NCBI GenBank assembly: GCA_036939755.1
Contig: JALLAZ010000863.1
Coordinates: forward strand, 1-11,551
Source: Stephanodiscus triporus
Taxonomy: Eukaryota > Bacillariophyta > Thalassiosirophyceae > Thalassiosirales > Thalassiosiraceae
Direction: 5' to 3'
DNA: 11,551 nt
Shown here: positions 2,813-11,551 of the stretch, piece by piece
Numbering within the stretch: position 1 is the stretch's first letter
Layout of the letters: each line of letters begins with the position of its first letter
Program-made: the position numbers and the translations under genes
Notes under the pieces: generated by a model
The model's database searches: none
What the model was told of the DNA's origin: nothing
What the model saw: the letters and a program-made list of their open reading frames with translations, nothing else

Positions 2813-3201
2813 GTGGTATTTTCTGGCGTACGCCAATAGAATTTTGCTGGCGTCGTACCATATGCATTTTGCTGGCGTACCTACTATCTCAAAAATGATA
2901 AGAGTGTGTAGAAGAGTGAGATATTTTTTGATTTCACAGGTTTCTCGTAGATACTTTGATTTATTTCTTATTTCCCACGTAGATCTGGAAAAGAAACAAG
3001 TGTTTCTTAATTTCTAAAAAATAATGGCCCCTTTTTCTTCTAAATATCGAGAAATCAACGAAATCTTCTTTGATGCCAATAATCGCCATGGCAAAATCCT
3101 CGCCCGCATCTTCGTCCTCTCAAATATTATCATTCACCCATTGCATCGAGAAGTCGATACTTCCAGCCACAAGCAACAACCTCATCCATCATCTTGTCGA
3201 C
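2813..3201. other. Divergent intergenic region between the GST-like and silaffin-like genes
   Basis: This region must hold the promoters of two genes read away from each other. Next to the GST start are three spaced copies of a short motif (annotated separately). From about 2890 the base composition becomes A/T-rich. Open codons run from 3070 in frame with the gene at 3202, but they encode no recognisable domain and would bury the signal peptide, so I treat them as 5' untranslated sequence. No clear TATA box is seen. Confidence 0.5.
2818..2880. repeat. Three copies of a 14-18 bp motif in the GST upstream region
   Basis: The motif ATTTTGCTGGCGTAC occurs as ATTTTCTGGCGTAC at 2818, ATTTTGCTGGCGTCGTAC at 2841 and ATTTTGCTGGCGTAC at 2866, spaced 23 and 25 bp apart, about two helical turns. 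The first copy overlaps a perfect 12-bp palindrome, TGGCGTACGCCA (2824-2835). The array starts six bases from the GST ATG, so it lies in that gene's 5' leader or core promoter. Regular spacing suggests a cis-regulatory array, though a simple tandem duplication relic is possible. Confidence 0.55.
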
Positions 3202-3780
3202 ATGATTACCAACATTGCCATCATTTACCTCCTGTCATTGTGGGCGGCGGCATGCCCAGGCGTCACGTCGCGGCCCATCGAGTCTGATCCGTTACGCAAG
3301 CGTGTAATTGATAACGCCAGGCATCTTCAAGCGAAGGTGGAGGTGAGCATGTCGATGTCTAGTGATTTGAATATGTCGCTCTCGTCCCTCTCCATGTCTA
3401 TAGGTTTCGCGGGCATCCAGATAGCCGTCGAAGATATTCCGATCGAAACCATCGATGTCAAGACCACCCATCCTAATGCAAAGTCCAACAAACACTCCGC
3501 TGAGAAAACTGCAAAGTCCAGCAAAGCGTCCGCTGCACTCCCATCCTTCTCCATTCCTAATGCGAAGTCCAACAAACATTCCGCTAAGAAAATTGCAAAA
3601 TCCAGCAAAGCGTCCTCTGCATCTATGTCCACCAATTCTTCTGCCAAGTCCAGCAAAGCGCCCACTGCAGCGAAGTCCCCCGATTCCTCTGCCAAGTCCA
3701 CCAAAGCACCCACTGCTGCTATGTCCACGGATTCATCTGCCAAATCCAGCAAAGCGCCCACATCGAATTTGGAACGATAA
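3202..3780 (+). CDS. Silaffin-like secreted protein with KxxK repeats (192 aa)
   Basis: Predicted biosilica (cell-wall) protein. The ATG at 3202 is chosen because it opens directly into a good signal peptide, MITNIAIIYLLSLWAAA, with small residues near 15-20 for cleavage. A short basic propeptide follows and then ARHLQ (39-43), which fits the RXL-type processing site reported for diatom silica proteins ([SARK]-x-L before [DENQ]). Residues 47-68 are a Met/Ser-rich stretch. From 92 on, the protein is Lys/Ser/Ala-rich with seven KxxK tetrads: KSNK (94, 122), KSSK (105, 133, 149, 181) and KSTK (165), arranged in internal repeats. In silaffins such lysines carry polyamines and the serines are phosphorylated, driving silica deposition and targeting to the silica deposition vesicle. 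Sequence similarity is by composition and motif only; no catalytic domain exists. The opposite strand is also open across the repeats, coding acidic 'ALLDLAEES'-type repeats, which I take to be a shadow. An in-frame upstream ATG at 3070 would bury the signal peptide. Codon use is less GC-rich than that of its neighbours. Confidence 0.68.
   Translation: MITNIAIIYLLSLWAAACPGVTSRPIESDPLRKRVIDNARHLQAKVEVSMSMSSDLNMSLSSLSMSIGFAGIQIAVEDIPIETIDVKTTHPNAKSNKHSAEKTAKSSKASAALPSFSIPNAKSNKHSAKKIAKSSKASSASMSTNSSAKSSKAPTAAKSPDSSAKSTKAPTAAMSTDSSAKSSKAPTSNLER
3475..3621 (+). repeat. 84-bp-period direct repeat (two copies) in the silaffin-like gene
   Basis: Two copies, 3475-3537 and 3559-3621, encode NAKSNKHSA followed by KSSKAS-type residues (aa 92-112 and 120-140). 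They differ at a few bases, several of them silent, which suggests selection on the protein after duplication. A 21-bp segment coding LPSFSIP separates them. Confidence 0.8.
3640..3777 (+). repeat. 48-bp tandem repeat (about three copies) in the silaffin-like gene
   Basis: Units at 3640-3687 and 3688-3735 and a partial unit at 3736-3777 each encode SAKSSKAPTAA-like 16-residue blocks (SAKSSKAP, SAKSTKAP, SAKSSKAP). The copies are close but not identical. Copy number is likely to vary between alleles. Confidence 0.85.
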
Positions 3781-4326
3781 CATAACGATTGAAAGGCGAG
3801 GAAAGGCATCCAAACAGACGATAGTTGTTAAAATGCCGAAGCGTGTCTAACGATTGAAAGGTGCAGCCTCTGACCGAAGTATACGTCTGCCCCAGTCCAG
3901 TGTCAATGTAGAAGACAATGTAGTCAACTCGATATCTATAATCATAAAACATTTTATGTCTGAATTGCAGCGTGCAAGAACGCAAATGAGGAGGAGGGAA
4001 TTTTAGCTGCATTTATTCGTATGTTATTTGTTTTGGTATTAGATTAGTTTCGGAATCTACAAGTAATTCAAGATGATGTTATCCCCAATGAACAATTGAC
4101 AAACGCGTAGTGAAATGAATAGATGGGTCGTGATATTAATTAGGCAGTTGACATGGCAGTTACTTCGACGAATTCATTCACTCACCATCATGCCAAGGGG
4201 GCAATATGTGTGTCGATCCAAAGCATTAGTGCCATAGAGGCACTCGTCACATTCTTCGGAAGAGAACACTCCTTCTTCCAACACTCGCGACCCGACCCTC
4301 CCGTCCCGTCCTATACACTCCAATGA
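3781..4326. other. Intergenic stretch without a convincing gene
   Basis: The first part is presumably the 3' untranslated region of the silaffin-like gene. I see no tRNA, no structured RNA and no recognisable coding region. On the minus strand codons are open, without a usable ATG, from 4404 down to 4177, with several cysteines; this overlaps the plus-strand open stretch described next and at most one of them can be real. Confidence 0.5.
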
Positions 4327-4953: not shown

Positions 4954-6900
4954 TCACCGGGCGGGAGAAGAGTCGACCCATCTTCGGATCGCATTATTCC
5001 TCTCGTGCAGTCTCATCAGGTTGTATTCCAATGCGGCCACGGTCACTCTACCCACGTGGGGGACGTAAATCACGCCTCGGGCACCGTCATCACCCAAGAG
5101 CGTCCCCTCGTCGAAGTTACTCCCTCCCCCTGAGGTGGTGGTAGTCGCCACGTTGATGACGATGGCATTGTCCGATATCCATTCCGTGGGCACCCTGAAC
5201 GAGTCCGAGGGTACACCCGAAACGACCACGGACGATCCCCTAACGCACCGTTCGACGGTCGTATCGTCGACGATCTCGCGTCGTACTGTCCCATCGGGGA
5301 GGTATCGCAACACGGAATCGACGTCGACCGAGTAAACCGTGGCTCCTCGTTCCGAGAGCATGACGGCGAGGGGTCGACCGAGGACCTCGGATCGGTTTAT
5401 GATCGTCATCGTTGCGCCAACGTATCGATCGCGCACGACGTCGTCGGCGTCGTCGGCGGTCGGCGACGACCCGTCGGAGAACGACGACGACGAAGCGCGC
5501 AATAGCGATTCCAGGATCTTGTACACCGCCAGGGCGGTGCACGGGCGAATGACCGGCCCCGAATCTTCTTCCGGCCGTTTTGCGTCGACGTCGTCGTCAC
5601 CATAACGATCGCCGCATTCGTGGACGACGTCGTCCTCGTCGCCGTCCACTCGTTTTCGCGTCCACGACGATCCCCCCCCACCGCGATATCCCTCCACGTC
5701 CTTGTGACGCGCGACTAGATTCCGAAGATGGTCGTCCATCGACGACCTGCCGCCGCCTTCGCCGCATCGGCGGACGCCTACTCCGGTAACGGTGGTGGTG
5801 GATCGTAGTCGTTGTTTTGTTTCTCCTTCGCGACAAGGCGTCCGACCACCAACCGACGATGACGACGACGTCGATGCCTCGGCGTCGACAACGACTGCGC
5901 AATTTTCCTCCTCCTCCACCGCCACCGCCATCGTCGATGTCGATCTATCGAAGATCGGGTAGAATACCAATATGCCGTGCACGTCAGTATTTTCGTTCGC
6001 CTCGCGAATGGCGAATTCCAAGTCCTCCCTCGTCGGTTCGACCCGACGCAGCTCGTACAGTATCCCGTCCTTCGCGCAGCACGACGCTATCTGTTCGGAG
6101 TACCTCTCGTTCCCGTGAGTATCGTCGCAATCGCGATATTTTTCGTCGTCGTCGTCGTCGGGGAAAATCATCGGAGGACGGAACGACGTGGTTTTCGTCG
6201 TTTTCGCTTTGGCGGTGGTGGCGAGGATGCCGACGAGCTTGATGCGTTCTTCCCCCCCCGGGGACGAATCGCGCATCTTCGCGACGTACTCGCGTACGGC
6301 CGATCTCATCGTTTCGGCGGTCTCGCTAACGATCGACTCCGAGGAGAAGCAATCGGATCTGAGGGGCCGATTATCATCATCGTCCTCGTTTCCCCTTCCG
6401 GCACGAGCAGCGTCCCGCGAATCGTCATCGTCGCGTCGGCGATTCGGACGACGAAGACGATAATGACGCGACGTGGGGGGATGACGAAGGATGCTGCTGC
6501 CGCCGCGGTGGTGGTGCCTCCCCTCCTCCGCCGCCGCGGACGGGAGGTGGGCGATCTTCTCCTCCTTCGGCAGTCTCGGCGACGATGGACATTCGCCACC
6601 CTCGGCCATTCGTCGGAGTTGTCGATGTCGCTGATGCGACGGATACGAATACGAAGATCGGCGATGGCTCGGCGACGATGGAGGAAGGAGACGATGGTGA
6701 TTATGGCGTCTACTACTACCGCCACCGCCGCCGCCGAAGCGGCCGCGATAGCGCGGCAGCATCGCGGCCGAGGCGAACGACGACGACGGCGAATGCGAAA
6801 AGTTCGCGACGACGATGATGGGGGAGGAGGATGAGCGGCATCCCGATCGAACGATATTGTTGATGTGGCACGAGAGGGCGTGATAGTGATAGCGCGACAT
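4954..6900 (-). CDS. MTD1: MTD1-type methylenetetrahydrofolate dehydrogenase with long low-complexity inserts
   Basis: Oxidises 5,10-methylene-tetrahydrofolate to the methenyl form in one-carbon metabolism. The closest family I recognise is the yeast MTD1 type, NAD-dependent and without cyclohydrolase activity. The 648-aa frame is twice the usual length of about 320. Seen: a Ser/Arg/His-rich extension (1-185) with Gly, Asp and Arg runs; the catalytic-domain start SETAETM (192-198); KLVGILAT (221-228); ERYSEQIASCCAKDGILYELRR (265-286); EANENTDVHGILVFYP (300-315); a low-complexity insert (316-387); ARHKDVEGY (397-405); a second insert (406-446); RPCTALAVYKILE (452-464); the Rossmann core INRSEVLGRPLAVMLSERGA (501-520) with TVYSVDVDS (521-529); VSGVPS (560-565); and IYVPHVGRVTVAAL (611-624). 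The active-site Tyr is Y267, but the Lys four residues on in bifunctional enzymes is Ile271 here. The true start is uncertain: M1, M47 (6762) or M99 (6606); the Arg/Ser-rich N-terminus could be a mitochondrial presequence, and parts of the inserts could be unspliced in-frame introns. Confidence 0.85.
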   Translation of the reverse strand: MSRYHYHALSCHINNIVRSGCRSSSSPIIVVANFSHSPSSSFASAAMLPRYRGRFGGGGGGSSRRHNHHRLLPPSSPSHRRSSYSYPSHQRHRQLRRMAEGGECPSSPRLPKEEKIAHLPSAAAEEGRHHHRGGSSILRHPPTSRHYRLRRPNRRRDDDDSRDAARAGRGNEDDDDNRPLRSDCFSSESIVSETAETMRSAVREYVAKMRDSSPGGEERIKLVGILATTAKAKTTKTTSFRPPMIFPDDDDDEKYRDCDDTHGNERYSEQIASCCAKDGILYELRRVEPTREDLEFAIREANENTDVHGILVFYPIFDRSTSTMAVAVEEEENCAVVVDAEASTSSSSSVGGRTPCREGETKQRLRSTTTVTGVGVRRCGEGGGRSSMDDHLRNLVARHKDVEGYRGGGGSSWTRKRVDGDEDDVVHECGDRYGDDDVDAKRPEEDSGPVIRPCTALAVYKILESLLRASSSSFSDGSSPTADDADDVVRDRYVGATMTIINRSEVLGRPLAVMLSERGATVYSVDVDSVLRYLPDGTVRREIVDDTTVERCVRGSSVVVSGVPSDSFRVPTEWISDNAIVINVATTTTSGGGSNFDEGTLLGDDGARGVIYVPHVGRVTVAALEYNLMRLHERNNAIRRWVDSSPAR

Positions 6901-7072
6901 GGTTCACCCAGCCAGTGAGCGTCGGATGCGAACGGCGTTTTCGGGCGGGGGGGCGGGGGCAGCCTCTCCCCCCCATTTGGAAAAGACGACGGACGGACCA
7001 GTCGTACCACGACCAAGAAAAGGATTCCCTGAGAAGGAGGATAAATTATCGCCTCAGGTGTCAGGTGGGATC

Positions 7073-7468
7073 ATGGCACCTGACGTTCGTTGCGTGTCTT
7101 GCTTCCCACCACTAAACCAATCAAACGCCCCCCCTGCTCGAACGCGTACTACTACTACTACTGGCGCATCGCCATCGACTCGCTCACCTCGTTGCCAATG
7201 TCACGAGTCCAGGTCCATTCTCGACGCGAGCGATTTCATCGTCCCCGCGGTGATGCGATATCTCGGCGTGCGGAGCCTCGTTCGATTCGGCGCCACGTGT
7301 AAATCGTACCGCACAGCGGCGTCGATGGAAGTCGCTCGTAGGAAGGACTGCATCGCGTCGATCGAATACGAGGTGACTCGGCTGCTCGCTGGCGGGACAT
7401 CGGACGACGACGATGAAAAATTCTACGAGGCCGAAGCGCTCGTTAACGATACGATACGATGCGACTGA
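7073..7468 (+). CDS. F-box-like protein segment, probably the 5' part of a split gene
   Basis: The frame is open from 6899, but that ATG overlaps the farthest start of the divergent folate gene by two bases, so the ATG at 7073 (131 aa) is preferred. Seen from 7073: a Pro/Thr/Ser-rich N-terminus with a Thr run from an ACT repeat (7146-7160), Cys pairs near its ends, then an F-box-like helical motif, VPAVMRYLGVRSLVRFGATC followed by KSYRTA, near residues 57-82, and an acidic stretch before the end. F-box-like motifs link target proteins to SCF ubiquitin ligases; the 'L-x-x-L-x-x-F-x-x-x-C-K' spacing is recognisable but weak. The frame stops at a TGA at 7466-7468, directly after an (ACGAT)3 repeat. 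The next frame overlaps by 10 bp, and one repeat unit accounts exactly for the frame difference, so this is probably the front half of one gene. Composition is GC-rich, unlike the following segment. Confidence 0.55.
   Translation: MAPDVRCVSCFPPLNQSNAPPARTRTTTTTGASPSTRSPRCQCHESRSILDASDFIVPAVMRYLGVRSLVRFGATCKSYRTAASMEVARRKDCIASIEYEVTRLLAGGTSDDDDEKFYEAEALVNDTIRCD
7446..7460 (+). repeat. (ACGAT)3 short tandem repeat at the junction of two overlapping frames
   Basis: Three perfect copies of ACGAT sit where the frame of the F-box-like segment (phase of 7073) must change to that of the Cys-rich segment (phase of 7459). The frame difference is two bases, equal to five modulo three, so a two-copy allele would read straight through. 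Replication slippage or a sequencing/assembly error at this repeat is the simplest explanation of the split. Confidence 0.8.
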
Positions 7469-8028
7469 TCGACGACGAGGCGCTTTACTCGCTCAGAATC
7501 ATGACGAATTCCTCTGATATCGACACATCCCTCGCCTACGAGTGGAAAGGGACCGACTGCTTTTTTCTAGAGAGGAAAAAAATCATTTCTTTGCTAGAAC
7601 GTCGTTATTATTATGACGACAGCACCAAAGTGAGCTTGGGTGGATATGAGTTCTGCATCATCTGTGCCCGCAGCGACGGTGAATGCGGCTTTCATCAGCA
7701 TGACACTTGCGAGGACTGCGACGAGTATTATGGAAGTTGTACATGTAGAGGATTGGGCTGGGATTTCTGCGTAAACTGCGGAAAGCTCGTGAATTGTAAT
7801 TGCTGTAGACTCGGATGTACTTATCGTGGAGATTCTCATGACGATCGCAGTCTTGATCACTTGCCATGCTGCTACAATGCTGATGAATACGGAATTACCG
7901 GTCATGGCGGAACTATCTGGAAGGGGTCGATGAGATGCAGAGCGCGAATGGCTAAGAAAGGCATCACAGCCAAGAGCTTAGCGGAAAGAATAAATAGGAT
8001 GGGCAGTTCTCCCAATATTCGCATCTAA
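7459..8028 (+). CDS. Cys-rich, probably zinc-binding protein segment (189 aa), likely 3' part of a split gene
   Basis: The function is unknown. An ATG at 7459 begins the frame and TAA at 8026-8028 ends it. After about 60 residues with acidic and aromatic character (LIDDEAL, ERRYYYDD) comes a dense Cys region, 66-138: CIIC (66-69), CEDC (84-87), CTC (94-96), CVNC (104-107), CNCC (113-116), then C120, C137 and C138, plus H79 and H81. The paired CxxC/CxC spacing suggests several bound zinc ions, but it matches no named finger that I can recall. The C-terminal 40 residues are basic (RARMAKKGITAKSLAERINR) and could bind nucleic acid or a partner. The frame overlaps the F-box-like segment by 10 bp and is likely the rest of that gene, split at (ACGAT)3. 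Its codons are more A/T-rich than the preceding segment. If it were independent, its promoter would have to lie inside the upstream coding sequence. Confidence 0.6.
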   Translation: MRLIDDEALYSLRIMTNSSDIDTSLAYEWKGTDCFFLERKKIISLLERRYYYDDSTKVSLGGYEFCIICARSDGECGFHQHDTCEDCDEYYGSCTCRGLGWDFCVNCGKLVNCNCCRLGCTYRGDSHDDRSLDHLPCCYNADEYGITGHGGTIWKGSMRCRARMAKKGITAKSLAERINRMGSSPNIRI

Positions 8029-8790: not shown

Positions 8791-10663
8791 CTACCGGCGC
8801 GTAGGTCCTCCCATCCCCATCTGGCTCATCATCTGCATCATTTGATTCATGTCCGGCATCCCGCCCGCTCCTCCGCCACCACCCCCTATGCCGGGCATTC
8901 CGCCACCCCCTCCGCCACCGCCCATCATTTGCATGATCGTGCTCATGTCCGGCATGCCACCCCCTCCCATTCCGCCTAGTTGTTGCATCTTAATTTTTTT
9001 ATAATAGAGAGGAGGGGAGAGACGCAGGGTGAGAGCGCCCGGGTTAGCTCGAGAGGATAAGTTTCGAGAATACAAGTCAAAACAATGTTTTACTTGCCAT
9101 TTGCATCGCCTGGGGATTGTTCTGAATCTGCTTCATCATCGCCTGGGGATTCTTCCTCATCTGCTCCATCGCCTGCCGTTGCCTCGCCTGGCCCGCCTTC
9201 CCCATCATCCCCGACTTGCCCATCTTGCTAACCATCCCCTCGAACTGCTTGTGCGTTCGCAATAGACCCCGCACCTCGTTCGGGTGGGTGCCCGACCCGG
9301 CCGCGATGCGCCGCACCCGCCTCTCCACGGACGGATCGTCCTTACCGTGCATGTCGACCCTGCCGTCGAGCTCGGCGTCGCTCATCGAATCCATCATGTA
9401 CATGAACTTCCGCAGCCGCATCGTAGAATCGTCGTCCCCATTCTGAGGTATGAGGTAGTCGGGCATGCCGGGGATCATACCCATGACCTTGTCGATCGGC
9501 CCGAGCTTCATTACCGATTGGAACTGCTTGTACATGTCCCTCAGGGTGAACACCCCCTTCGCCATCTTCTCCATCATCTCCTCCTGACCCTTGCCGTCCC
9601 CCTGGATGGACTTCATCTCCTCCACGAGGCCGCGCACGTCGCCGAAGCCAAGGAGCTTCGAAACGAACGACCCGGCGTTGAAGGGGTCGAGGTCCTCGAA
9701 GCGCTCGCCGCTGCCGAGGAATATGATCGGACTCCCCGTCGCGGCCACGGCGCTAAGCGCTCCCCCCCCCCTGGCGTGACCGTCGAGCTTCGTGACGATG
9801 ACGCTGCCGACGTTCACGGCCGAGTGGAACGCGAGTGCCTGGTCGTACACCGCCTGTCCCTGCGTCGCGTCCATGACGAACACAGTGTTGTCGGGCTCGA
9901 CGGCCGCGGATATCTCCTGCATCTCCTCGAAGAGCGCCTCCTCCTGACGATGACGACCGGACGTGTCCACGACGATCACCTCGTACCCGTCCTCCGCGAA
10001 TTTGCGCACCCCCTCCTCCGCGATCGTCACCGGATCGGCCTCGGTGTAGCTGCCGTAGAACGGTATACGCAGCTTCGTGGCGTTCTGCTTCAACTGGTCG
10101 AACGCCCCGGCTCGGAAGGTGTCGGCGCAAACCATGGCCGTCTTCCACCCACGGCGCTGGTAGTAGTGCGCGTATTTGGCGATGGATGTGGTCTTGCCTG
10201 CTCCCTGCAGTCCAACGAACAGTATCACGTTGGGCTTGCCGCGCTTCATGACGTACGGCCTCGAGGTCGTCGTCGTCGTCGTCGTCTTCGACTTGGCGGA
10301 CCCGATGCCGGCCTTCCCGTCGTCCCCTCCCCCCCCCCCGCCGCCGGGCGTGAGCATGGCGGTCAATTCGTCGACGACGATCCTCTGTACCGTTCGATTG
10401 ATGTTCGCGTTGTTGTTGTTGGTGGTGGCGGTGGCGGAGCCCCCCCCGCCAGCCCGCCTCGCGACGAGCTCCCCCGCCCTCTTCTGGATGTTCGTCCGCA
10501 GCCTCATCACGAGCTGCACGTTCACGTCGGACTCGATCAGGGCGCGGGAGATTTCGGATATCAGGGCGTTGAGGGCCTCGGTCGTTAGGGCGTCGTCGGC
10601 ATCGTTCGATTGGAGCTTTTGGAGGGAGGAACGGAGCTTCCCCCCCAGTTCGGCGAGGACCAT
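8791..10663 (-). CDS. SRP54: Signal recognition particle 54 kDa subunit, two exons
   Basis: The GTPase of the cytosolic signal recognition particle: it binds signal sequences emerging from the ribosome and, with the SRP receptor, docks them at the ER. Exon 1 is 10663-9094 and exon 2 is 8975-8791, joined over an intron, giving 584 aa. Seen: the N domain starts [19 protein letters not shown], as in cytosolic eukaryotic SRP54 and not the plastid form; a low-complexity insert (70-90 and 106-136, with Gly, Asn and Thr runs) lies in the N-G linker; the G domain has GLQGAGKTT (P-loop, 151-159), [12 protein letters not shown] (181-192), DTSGRH (233-238), [11 protein letters not shown] (291-301) and GSGE (317-320); the M domain has MGMIPGM (394-400), RIAAGSGTH (452-460), then Met-rich helices. 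Exon 2 supplies the Met/Gly-rich tail ([13 protein letters not shown]) ending in PTRR. Without splicing, exon 1 would stop after six extra residues (SKTLF-stop), losing the tail. Human SRP54 is about 504 aa; the excess comes from the inserts and Gly runs. A second copy of the 5' end lies at 11441. Confidence 0.95.
8976..9093 (-). other. SRP54: Predicted 118-nt intron of SRP54
   Basis: The donor GTAAAA begins at 9093 on the minus strand, and the acceptor CTAG ends at 8976. Joining leaves codon A|GC (Ser) and moves exactly from ...PQAMQMA into [10 protein letters not shown], keeping frame. Another AG (8990-8989, ATTAAG) would not keep the Met/Gly frame with this donor. Exact borders are inferred; the length is normal for diatom introns. 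Confidence 0.75.
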
Positions 10664-10694
10664 GGTGTGGTGATGTGAGTGGGTTTTTGTAAAC
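10584..10694. repeat. 111-bp direct repeat, copy A (5' end of SRP54 and upstream bases)
   Basis: This copy contains the first 26 codons of SRP54 plus 31 bp upstream of its ATG. It matches 11441-11551 with no gaps and three differences, at 10607, 10633 and 10639 (108 of 111 identical). The identity stops on the gene side at 10583/11440; on the other side the window ends before it can be seen to stop. Confidence 0.95.
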
Positions 10695-11440: not shown

Positions 11441-11520
11441 GTTAGGGCGTCGTCGGCATCGTTTGATTGGAGCTTTTGGAGGGAGGAACAGAGCTCCCCC
11501 CCCAGTTCGGCGAGGACCAT
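11416..11520 (-). pseudogene. SRP54: Truncated duplicate of the SRP54 5' end
   Basis: From an ATG at 11520-11518 the first 26 codons match SRP54 except for Lys9 to Glu and Arg11 to Cys; the third base change is silent. At 11441 the match ends, and the frame runs through the hairpin for eight more codons to a TAG at 11418-11416, so at most 34 residues are made. It lacks the G and M domains and cannot work as SRP54. The upstream sequence is also duplicated, so it may still be transcribed. Confidence 0.85.
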
Positions 11521-11551
11521 GGTGTGGTGATGTGAGTGGGTTTTTGTAAAC
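11441..11551. repeat. 111-bp direct repeat, copy B, reaching the window edge
   Basis: The partner of 10584-10694, 857 bp away in the same orientation. Because it is still matching at the last base, the duplicated block probably continues outside the window. Confidence 0.95.

Follow-up and report, generated by a model that had tools for sequence, protein, structure and literature searches.

The question raised by this locus is whether an uninterrupted ORF of 192 codons on the plus strand, at 3202-3780, encodes a protein of diatom silica. It lies in the window analysed here (the whole stretch of 11,551 nucleotides, contig C853 of the genome searched, a 21.65-Mb assembly of 1324 contigs), and its product of 192 amino acids (P0001) had been proposed to be a silaffin-like precursor. 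Judging from motifs and composition, P0001 is fairly likely to be a silaffin-like precursor that is secreted, processed at R-x-L and bound for biosilica. The genome contains a near-complete silicon transporter (positions 2-478 of the 513-position Pfam model, 758.8 bits), with closest matches in the protein library at 97% and 87%. Its best named relatives are from Cyclostephanos tholiformis (84%), a freshwater species, and SIT3 of Thalassiosira pseudonana (74% over 77% of the query), and the transporter and these relatives place the host among the thalassiosiralean diatoms, perhaps the freshwater ones. Partial silicon transporter matches were also seen at two other places, C722:598-933, with an in-frame TGA, and C1256:11520-11756.

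The first 23 residues of P0001 (MITNIAIIYLLSLWAAACPGVTS, 3202-3270, plus strand) form a putative signal peptide, recognised by the hydrophobicity of the N-terminus (15-residue hydropathy maximum of 2.0 at residues 5-19) and with a cleavage site picked by eye; the segment is helical in a low-confidence structure model. Behind it lies a putative propeptide (3271-3327, plus strand, residues 24-42) ending in RHL. The putative R-x-L processing motif, RHLQ, occupies residues 40-43 (3319-3330, plus strand), and the sister frames described below carry RHLE at an equal spacing to SMS. The original prediction had read RHLQ as a match to [SARK]-x-L/[DENQ], which is correct, and SDLN and SNLE match as well; that pattern is the prediction's own, the wording in the literature consulted being R-x-L, and R-x-L itself occurs in the protein only at RHLQ. 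The predicted Met/Ser-rich part is also found (SMSMSSDLNMSLSSLSMSIG, 3346-3405, plus strand, residues 49-68), with SMSMS at residues 49-53 and a second SMS at 64-66, and has the highest plus-frame codon score of the gene's three segments. It is followed by a linker (FAGIQIAVEDIPIETIDVKTTHPN, 3406-3477, plus strand, residues 69-92), which together with the end of the Met/Ser-rich segment yields another hydrophobic stretch, less pronounced than the first (hydropathy of 1.43 for the 19 residues starting at 58). Serine makes up 25.5% of the chain after RHLQ, alanine 16.1% and lysine 13.4%; Tyr, Trp and Cys are absent from it, and its net charge before modification is +11. The structure model is mostly coil (mean pLDDT 49.2, a low confidence obtained from single-sequence input), which would be compatible with disorder, and its quality is too low for further use. 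Positions 3202-3777 had no Pfam match at E<=0.01, and a scan of the window for Rfam families and tRNAs found none. Plastid targeting was considered and appears unlikely: an aromatic residue is expected just after the signal cleavage site of plastid-targeted proteins, and none stands behind the presumed site of P0001.

The surroundings of the gene include a 25-bp repeat of 2.7 copies (2818-2884), located between a GST gene and the silaffin-like gene, and a 648-aa folate dehydrogenase/cyclohydrolase on the minus strand (4954-6900; PF00763, PF02882) with a long low-complexity stretch between its domains. Two overlapping ORFs of 189 aa on the plus strand (6899-7468 and 7459-8028), both without a Pfam match, may belong to a single gene divided by an intron or by a break in the frame. 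A 111-bp direct repeat (10584-10694 and 11441-11551, 97% identical, 857 bp apart) represents the start of the SRP54 gene recurring at the contig end, by duplication or as an assembly effect.

The C-terminal half of P0001 contains two families of repeats, and the 84-bp and 48-bp periods predicted for them were both recovered in the DNA. A 67-nt unit coding for AKSNKHSAxKxAKSSKAS is present in two copies (3471-3537 and 3555-3621, together 3471-3621, plus strand) that are 91% identical and spaced by 84 bp, and a tandem array of about 3.5 copies of a 48-bp unit, AKS(S/T)KA...SS, covers 3594-3761 of the same strand. Seven AKS[SNT]K units are distributed over 3481-3753 (plus strand), their KSxK tetrads spanning 3481-3492, 3514-3525, 3565-3576, 3598-3609, 3646-3657, 3694-3705 and 3742-3753. 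The prediction of seven KxxK tetrads holds if AKSxK is what is counted, but with overlaps there are nine KxxK, the additional ones being the overlapping KTAK and KIAK. When residues 25-192 were shuffled, KxxK averaged 2.5 per shuffle, with nine reached once in 20,000 shuffles, and AKSxK averaged 0.09, with a maximum of three and seven never reached in 20,000, a test that in part re-expresses the repetitiveness of the region. Hence, we compared P0001 with other ORFs of its own genome, a sample of 311 ORFs in 219.8 kb (at least 100 aa from the first ATG, taken from the window, 20 sampled 10-kb stretches and 3 transporter loci). K[SG][SGTN]K was found in ten of them, nine carrying a single one and P0001 seven, so that it is the sole ORF of the sample with more than one. 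By plain KxxK, other ORFs come near to P0001 or equal it (8 in 418 aa; 9 in 820 aa). When the seven AKSxK cores were compared, 6 of 18 columns varied; the codons of the Ala and of the first Lys vary only synonymously, and amino acid changes occur at the third position of the tetrad and at the residue behind it, which hints slightly at selection on the tetrad and at nothing beyond.

The assignment of P0001 to a class depends on the definition used, and published proteins and criteria are given here as described in the parts of the cited papers that were available. The silaffin-like screen that PMC3478156 quotes from Scheffel et al. asks for at least 18% Ser and at least 10% Lys per 100 aa together with an ER signal. 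This Ser/Lys composition is reached in 68 of the 93 100-aa segments of P0001, with starts at residues 26-93, and by five of 299 ORFs (20 sampled stretches and the window), P0001 included; none of the other four has more than one K[SG][SGTN]K. The KXXK screen, in the wording available from PMC5501833, looks for repeated KXXK in which X is S or G, located 1-6 residues apart, and fails to retrieve P0001, whose KSSK tetrads at 105, 133, 149 and 181 have 24, 12 and 28 residues between them; close KxxK pairs arise only when N, A or I is allowed as X. The pentalysine cluster, described in PMC5501833 and PMC9650480 as five non-consecutive lysines within 12-14 residues, is narrowly missed as well: the stretches with five Lys in 12 residues (122-133 and 125-136) contain adjacent KK, and without one Lys of the pair five lysines span 15 residues. 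Silaffins sensu stricto are isolated from biosilica and possess polyamine- or methyl-modified lysines and phosphorylated hydroxy-amino acids; one of their criteria, R-x-L behind a putative signal peptide, is present in P0001 as RHLQ, as a motif. Biosilica proteins are described as typically or frequently having R-x-L in this position (PMC5525289, PMC5647440, PMC4557024), and the role of this motif in precursor processing is given in the available text of PMC5647440 as still to be proven. We would thus file P0001 as silaffin-like by composition and not as a silaffin, a term that in the strict sense is biochemically defined, and it is probably a candidate addition to the known silaffin-like class. 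The silaffin-like reading originally put forward draws support from the composition screen, from the silicon transporter and from the look-alike sisters, but not from the strict KXXK and pentalysine definitions.

It had also been anticipated that homology searches would miss such a protein, and indeed P0001 has no relative in the protein library, where 3115 candidates gave no match at E<=0.01 and residues 1-120 used separately gave 16 candidates and no match at E<=10. There was no match among PDB sequences at E<=0.1 or among phage records, and a paralogue search of the genome at E<=10 scored ten candidates and retrieved only P0001 itself. A literature search for Met-Ser/KSSK motifs in diatom biosilica led to T. 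pseudonana only.

Comparison with the described silica proteins shows a mixture of shared and distinct traits. P0001 resembles the SFLPs and KXXK proteins of T. pseudonana, as far as described in the excerpts of PMC3478156 and PMC5501833, in Ser/Lys composition, tandem repeats and a presumed ER signal. It has KSSK tetrads in common with Thaps3_24597, where most tetrads are KSSK, and a Met-Ser motif (SMSMS) in common with Thaps3_24597 and Thaps3_25838 (MSMSM); these two proteins both cluster with Tpsil3, and the role of their MSMSM is unknown (PMC3478156). R-x-L is shared with the ten new KXXK proteins of PMC5501833. Unlike in these groups, the seven KSxK of P0001 are 7-13 residues apart, three of them with N or T in the third position, its four strict KSSK are 12-28 residues apart, and its repeats have 28 and 16 aa versus 53 aa in Thaps3_24597. 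The silaffins tpSil1-4, following the portion of PMC4557024 at hand, likewise possess a signal peptide (putative in P0001), KXXK tetrads, a body rich in hydroxy-amino acids and R-x-L in their precursors. They differ in that no sequence match to them was found for P0001, which lacks a strict pentalysine cluster; the likeness is one of sequence, and silaffins are defined by lysine modification and extraction from biosilica. With cingulins (PMC4557024, PMC9650480, both in part) there is a coincidence in K(X)2K motifs and a presumed secretion signal, but in cingulins KXXK alternates with Tyr/Trp-rich regions and P0001 has neither Tyr nor Trp after RHLQ, nor a lysine-enriched region with S and G only. 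Finally, SAPs, in the sections of PMC5647440 used, show the same succession of presumed signal peptide, R-x-L and Ser-rich segment. However, they have a single transmembrane segment and a conserved cytoplasmic domain; the second hydrophobic stretch of P0001 is moderate (1.43 over 19 residues), and a cytoplasmic domain was not recognised in its own sequence.

Similar layouts were found elsewhere in the same genome. A codon pattern for MSMSM had 59 matches, most of them in an ATGTCG unit, and ten loci on five contigs plus four further places were read. One of them, C1177 14220-14939 (L051:120-839), codes for 239 aa with a hydrophobic N-terminus, GRHLEQEVFTSMSMSVGF, the tetrads KSSK, KSNK and KSSK and then a Cys-containing C-terminal end. 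Used as a query against the genome, this protein retrieved frames in contigs C80 (E 2.5e-25, 58%) and C1229 (E 6.3e-13, 51%). The C80 frame (L053:1501-2457), read from the matching Met, has 318 aa with a hydrophobic N-terminus, KARHLEQAVFASMS, KSSK, a Ser-Pro stretch and a C-terminal P-domain of the proprotein-convertase type (PF01483, E 9.3e-9). In C1229 (L054:1501-1713) the N-terminus is also hydrophobic, the frame stops shortly after RHLEQEL and a KSSK-bearing frame comes after it, suggesting an interrupted sister that may be broken or spliced. The gap from RHL[EQ] to SMS is five residues in each of P0001, C1177 and C80. A 200-kb sample with 1464 stop-to-stop frames (60 aa or longer) contains no case of the order R-x-L-[DENQ] with SMS at most 8 residues on; shuffling P0001 residues 25-92 produced it 27 times in 50,000. 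The SMS of C1177 is not independent evidence because this frame was found through MSMSM; independence does hold for its RHLE, for the spacing and for the tetrads, though these were viewed post hoc.

The relationship between P0001 and these sisters is less clear by similarity. Genome searches at E<=10 did not link them from either side, and pairwise BLASTP with P0001 was weak (E 2e-4 for the first 93 residues of C1177, 0.025 for the whole C1177 protein and 0.31 for C80). Ser amounts to 8.8% in C1177 and 15.1% in C80, and the Ser/Lys values of the composition screen are reached in no segment of the former and in 65 of the latter. A profile of the three sisters scored 15.6 bits against P0001 without composition correction, which none of 5000 shuffles (best 15.5) and none of the 1464 sample frames reached, but only 1.2 bits after correction, a score also attained by 446 shuffles out of 5000 and by 49 of the 1464 frames. 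A common origin of P0001 and the sisters is therefore possible, from a similarity that is suggestive and fails composition correction; constraint shared on a processing or targeting segment would give the same picture.

Other patterns gave a variety of loci. A KS(S/N)K-A DNA pattern occurs at ten places in the genome, four of them within the window gene; among the other six, L025, L027, L028 and L029 have one K[SG][SGTN]K each and L026 and L030 none. A further codon variant had 39 matches (9 for the reversed control), one of them in C80, and another had two, in 3-kb loci without a frame of at least 60 aa that contains MSMS or two KSxK-type tetrads. The SMSMS DNA pattern had 50 matches in the genome versus 10 for its control. 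L025 (C75:19125-22138) contains a minus-strand frame of 193 aa with a hydrophobic N-terminal stretch, KRHLKRKSNK, in which RHL adjoins the KSNK tetrad, and a Cys-containing end. Met-Ser runs behind R-x-L, as in the window protein, were seen in two more frames. That of C877 (L047:342-1304, 320 aa) has RKLQ and then CMSESMSMCMSVSMSMSM, with long Met-Ser runs, Thr-Pro stretches and a hydrophobic C-terminus, and that of C449 (L048:344-871, minus strand, 175 aa) combines TRKLVEG and MSMSMP with a hydrophobic segment close to its C-terminus, a layout reminiscent of SAPs. In C1177 a Met-Ser candidate (GGGEIMSMSMSF, L049:318-791, minus strand) starts about 330 bp from the sister frame, on the opposite strand. 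Other MSMS frames (for example in C9, C25, C40 and C197) have no KxxK and resemble codon-repeat tracts.

Codon statistics (trained on 43 sequences with 25,866 codons) leave the strand unsettled and overall do not favour the plus strand. The whole ORF scores 0.11 in the plus frame and 0.20 in the same-phase minus frame, the first 43 codons 0.06 versus 0.13 and the repeats -0.07 versus 0.12; the Met/Ser-rich part is the one place where the plus frame scores higher (0.33 versus 0.24). Coding by the minus strand (ORF 3327-3809, 160 aa, rich in Leu, Asp and Ala), or by no strand, could appeal to this slightly higher overall score and to a minus frame that is open across the repeats and shares third codon positions with the plus frame. 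We nevertheless regard it as very improbable, given that the N-terminus of the minus product is not hydrophobic (0.61 at most for any 15 residues among the first 30) and that the motif order of the plus product recurs in two other frames of the genome; a weaker argument is that 35 nucleotide differences in four copy pairs cause 17 amino acid changes when read in the plus frame, compared with 21 in the minus frame of the same phase. The plus strand is preferred because its protein motifs are ordered, which is our judgement and not one decided by codon statistics. On this strand the frame assigned to 3202-3780 is indeed open, but it stays open ahead of 3202, where ATGs in the same frame stand at 3073 and 3088, the second of them in the context gccATGg, which we take to be good for initiation. 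A start at one of them would produce a basic intracellular protein (with, for example, a chromatin-like tail) or a signal-anchored membrane protein, an outcome we hold to be quite unlikely: it leaves the hydrophobic stretch, R-x-L and SMSMS unaccounted for, the absence of Pfam matches in 3202-3777 speaks against it, and the extension with the two ATGs (3073-3201, plus strand), a probable 5' leader, has a codon score of -0.19, below the 0.11 of the whole body from 3202, of which the repeats by themselves reach only -0.07. The distance from Met to R-x-L is 55 and 53 residues in the open sisters, and in the window 40 from ATG 3202 and 83 from ATG 3073; since 53-55 is closer to 40 than to 83, 3202 is favoured. 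The Met of C1177 that aligns with that of C80 sits immediately ahead of the hydrophobic stretch; in C80, however, another in-frame ATG lies farther upstream, which keeps the sisters from deciding the start. ATG 3202 is likely the start codon, in a choice that is ambiguous.

A protein starting at 3202 could still end up outside silica, as a secreted Ser/Lys-rich protein of the cell surface or mucilage (for example mucin-like or adhesive). A putative secretion signal and low complexity suit many extracellular matrix proteins, and the sister in C80 has its C-terminal P-domain and a mucin-like match far under the cut-off (E 0.016, 15.6 of 34.7 bits). On the other hand, seven AKSxK, R-x-L and SMSMS jointly resemble silica-associated proteins as published in the excerpts cited above, and a Lys/Tyr-rich candidate adhesin proved to be a cell-wall protein according to the part of PMC4220933 consulted, so that we consider a mucilage protein rather unlikely.

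For the silaffin-like precursor that we prefer, the steps beyond the sequence (signal cleavage, R-x-L processing, modification, vesicle targeting and silica binding) are modelled on T. pseudonana silaffins and cingulins, their basis being the work on T. pseudonana and C. fusiformis reviewed in PMC4557024, in the part available. The hydrophobic N-terminus would direct the chain into the ER and the propeptide would be cut after RHL, leaving a Ser/Met-rich and KSSK-repeat body that would remain disordered. Phosphorylation of its serines and modification of its clustered lysines would convert it into a zwitterionic polymer, which could bind polyamines and newly forming silica inside the deposition vesicle and become trapped in the frustule wall. 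More tentatively, P0001 and its sisters may share a modular frustule address consisting of a hydrophobic signal, a short propeptide, RHL[EQ], exactly five residues, SMS and KSxK tetrads. It is also only a tentative idea that this module would be joined to differing C-termini, namely KSxK repeats in the window protein, a Cys-containing domain in C1177 and a Ser-Pro stretch with a P-domain in C80.

Most descriptions of diatom silica-forming proteins come from a small number of species, and the proteins have little sequence in common. The window would add a clear candidate from another thalassiosiralean, together with sisters of the same layout and different C-termini. The order R-x-L, fixed gap, SMS and KSxK is concrete enough to be used in searches, and T. 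pseudonana would allow its role as a targeting signal to be examined. The common front end with changing C-termini is the part most worth pursuing and, if the address module is real, it would be a readable code for targeting to silica, beyond a bias in composition.
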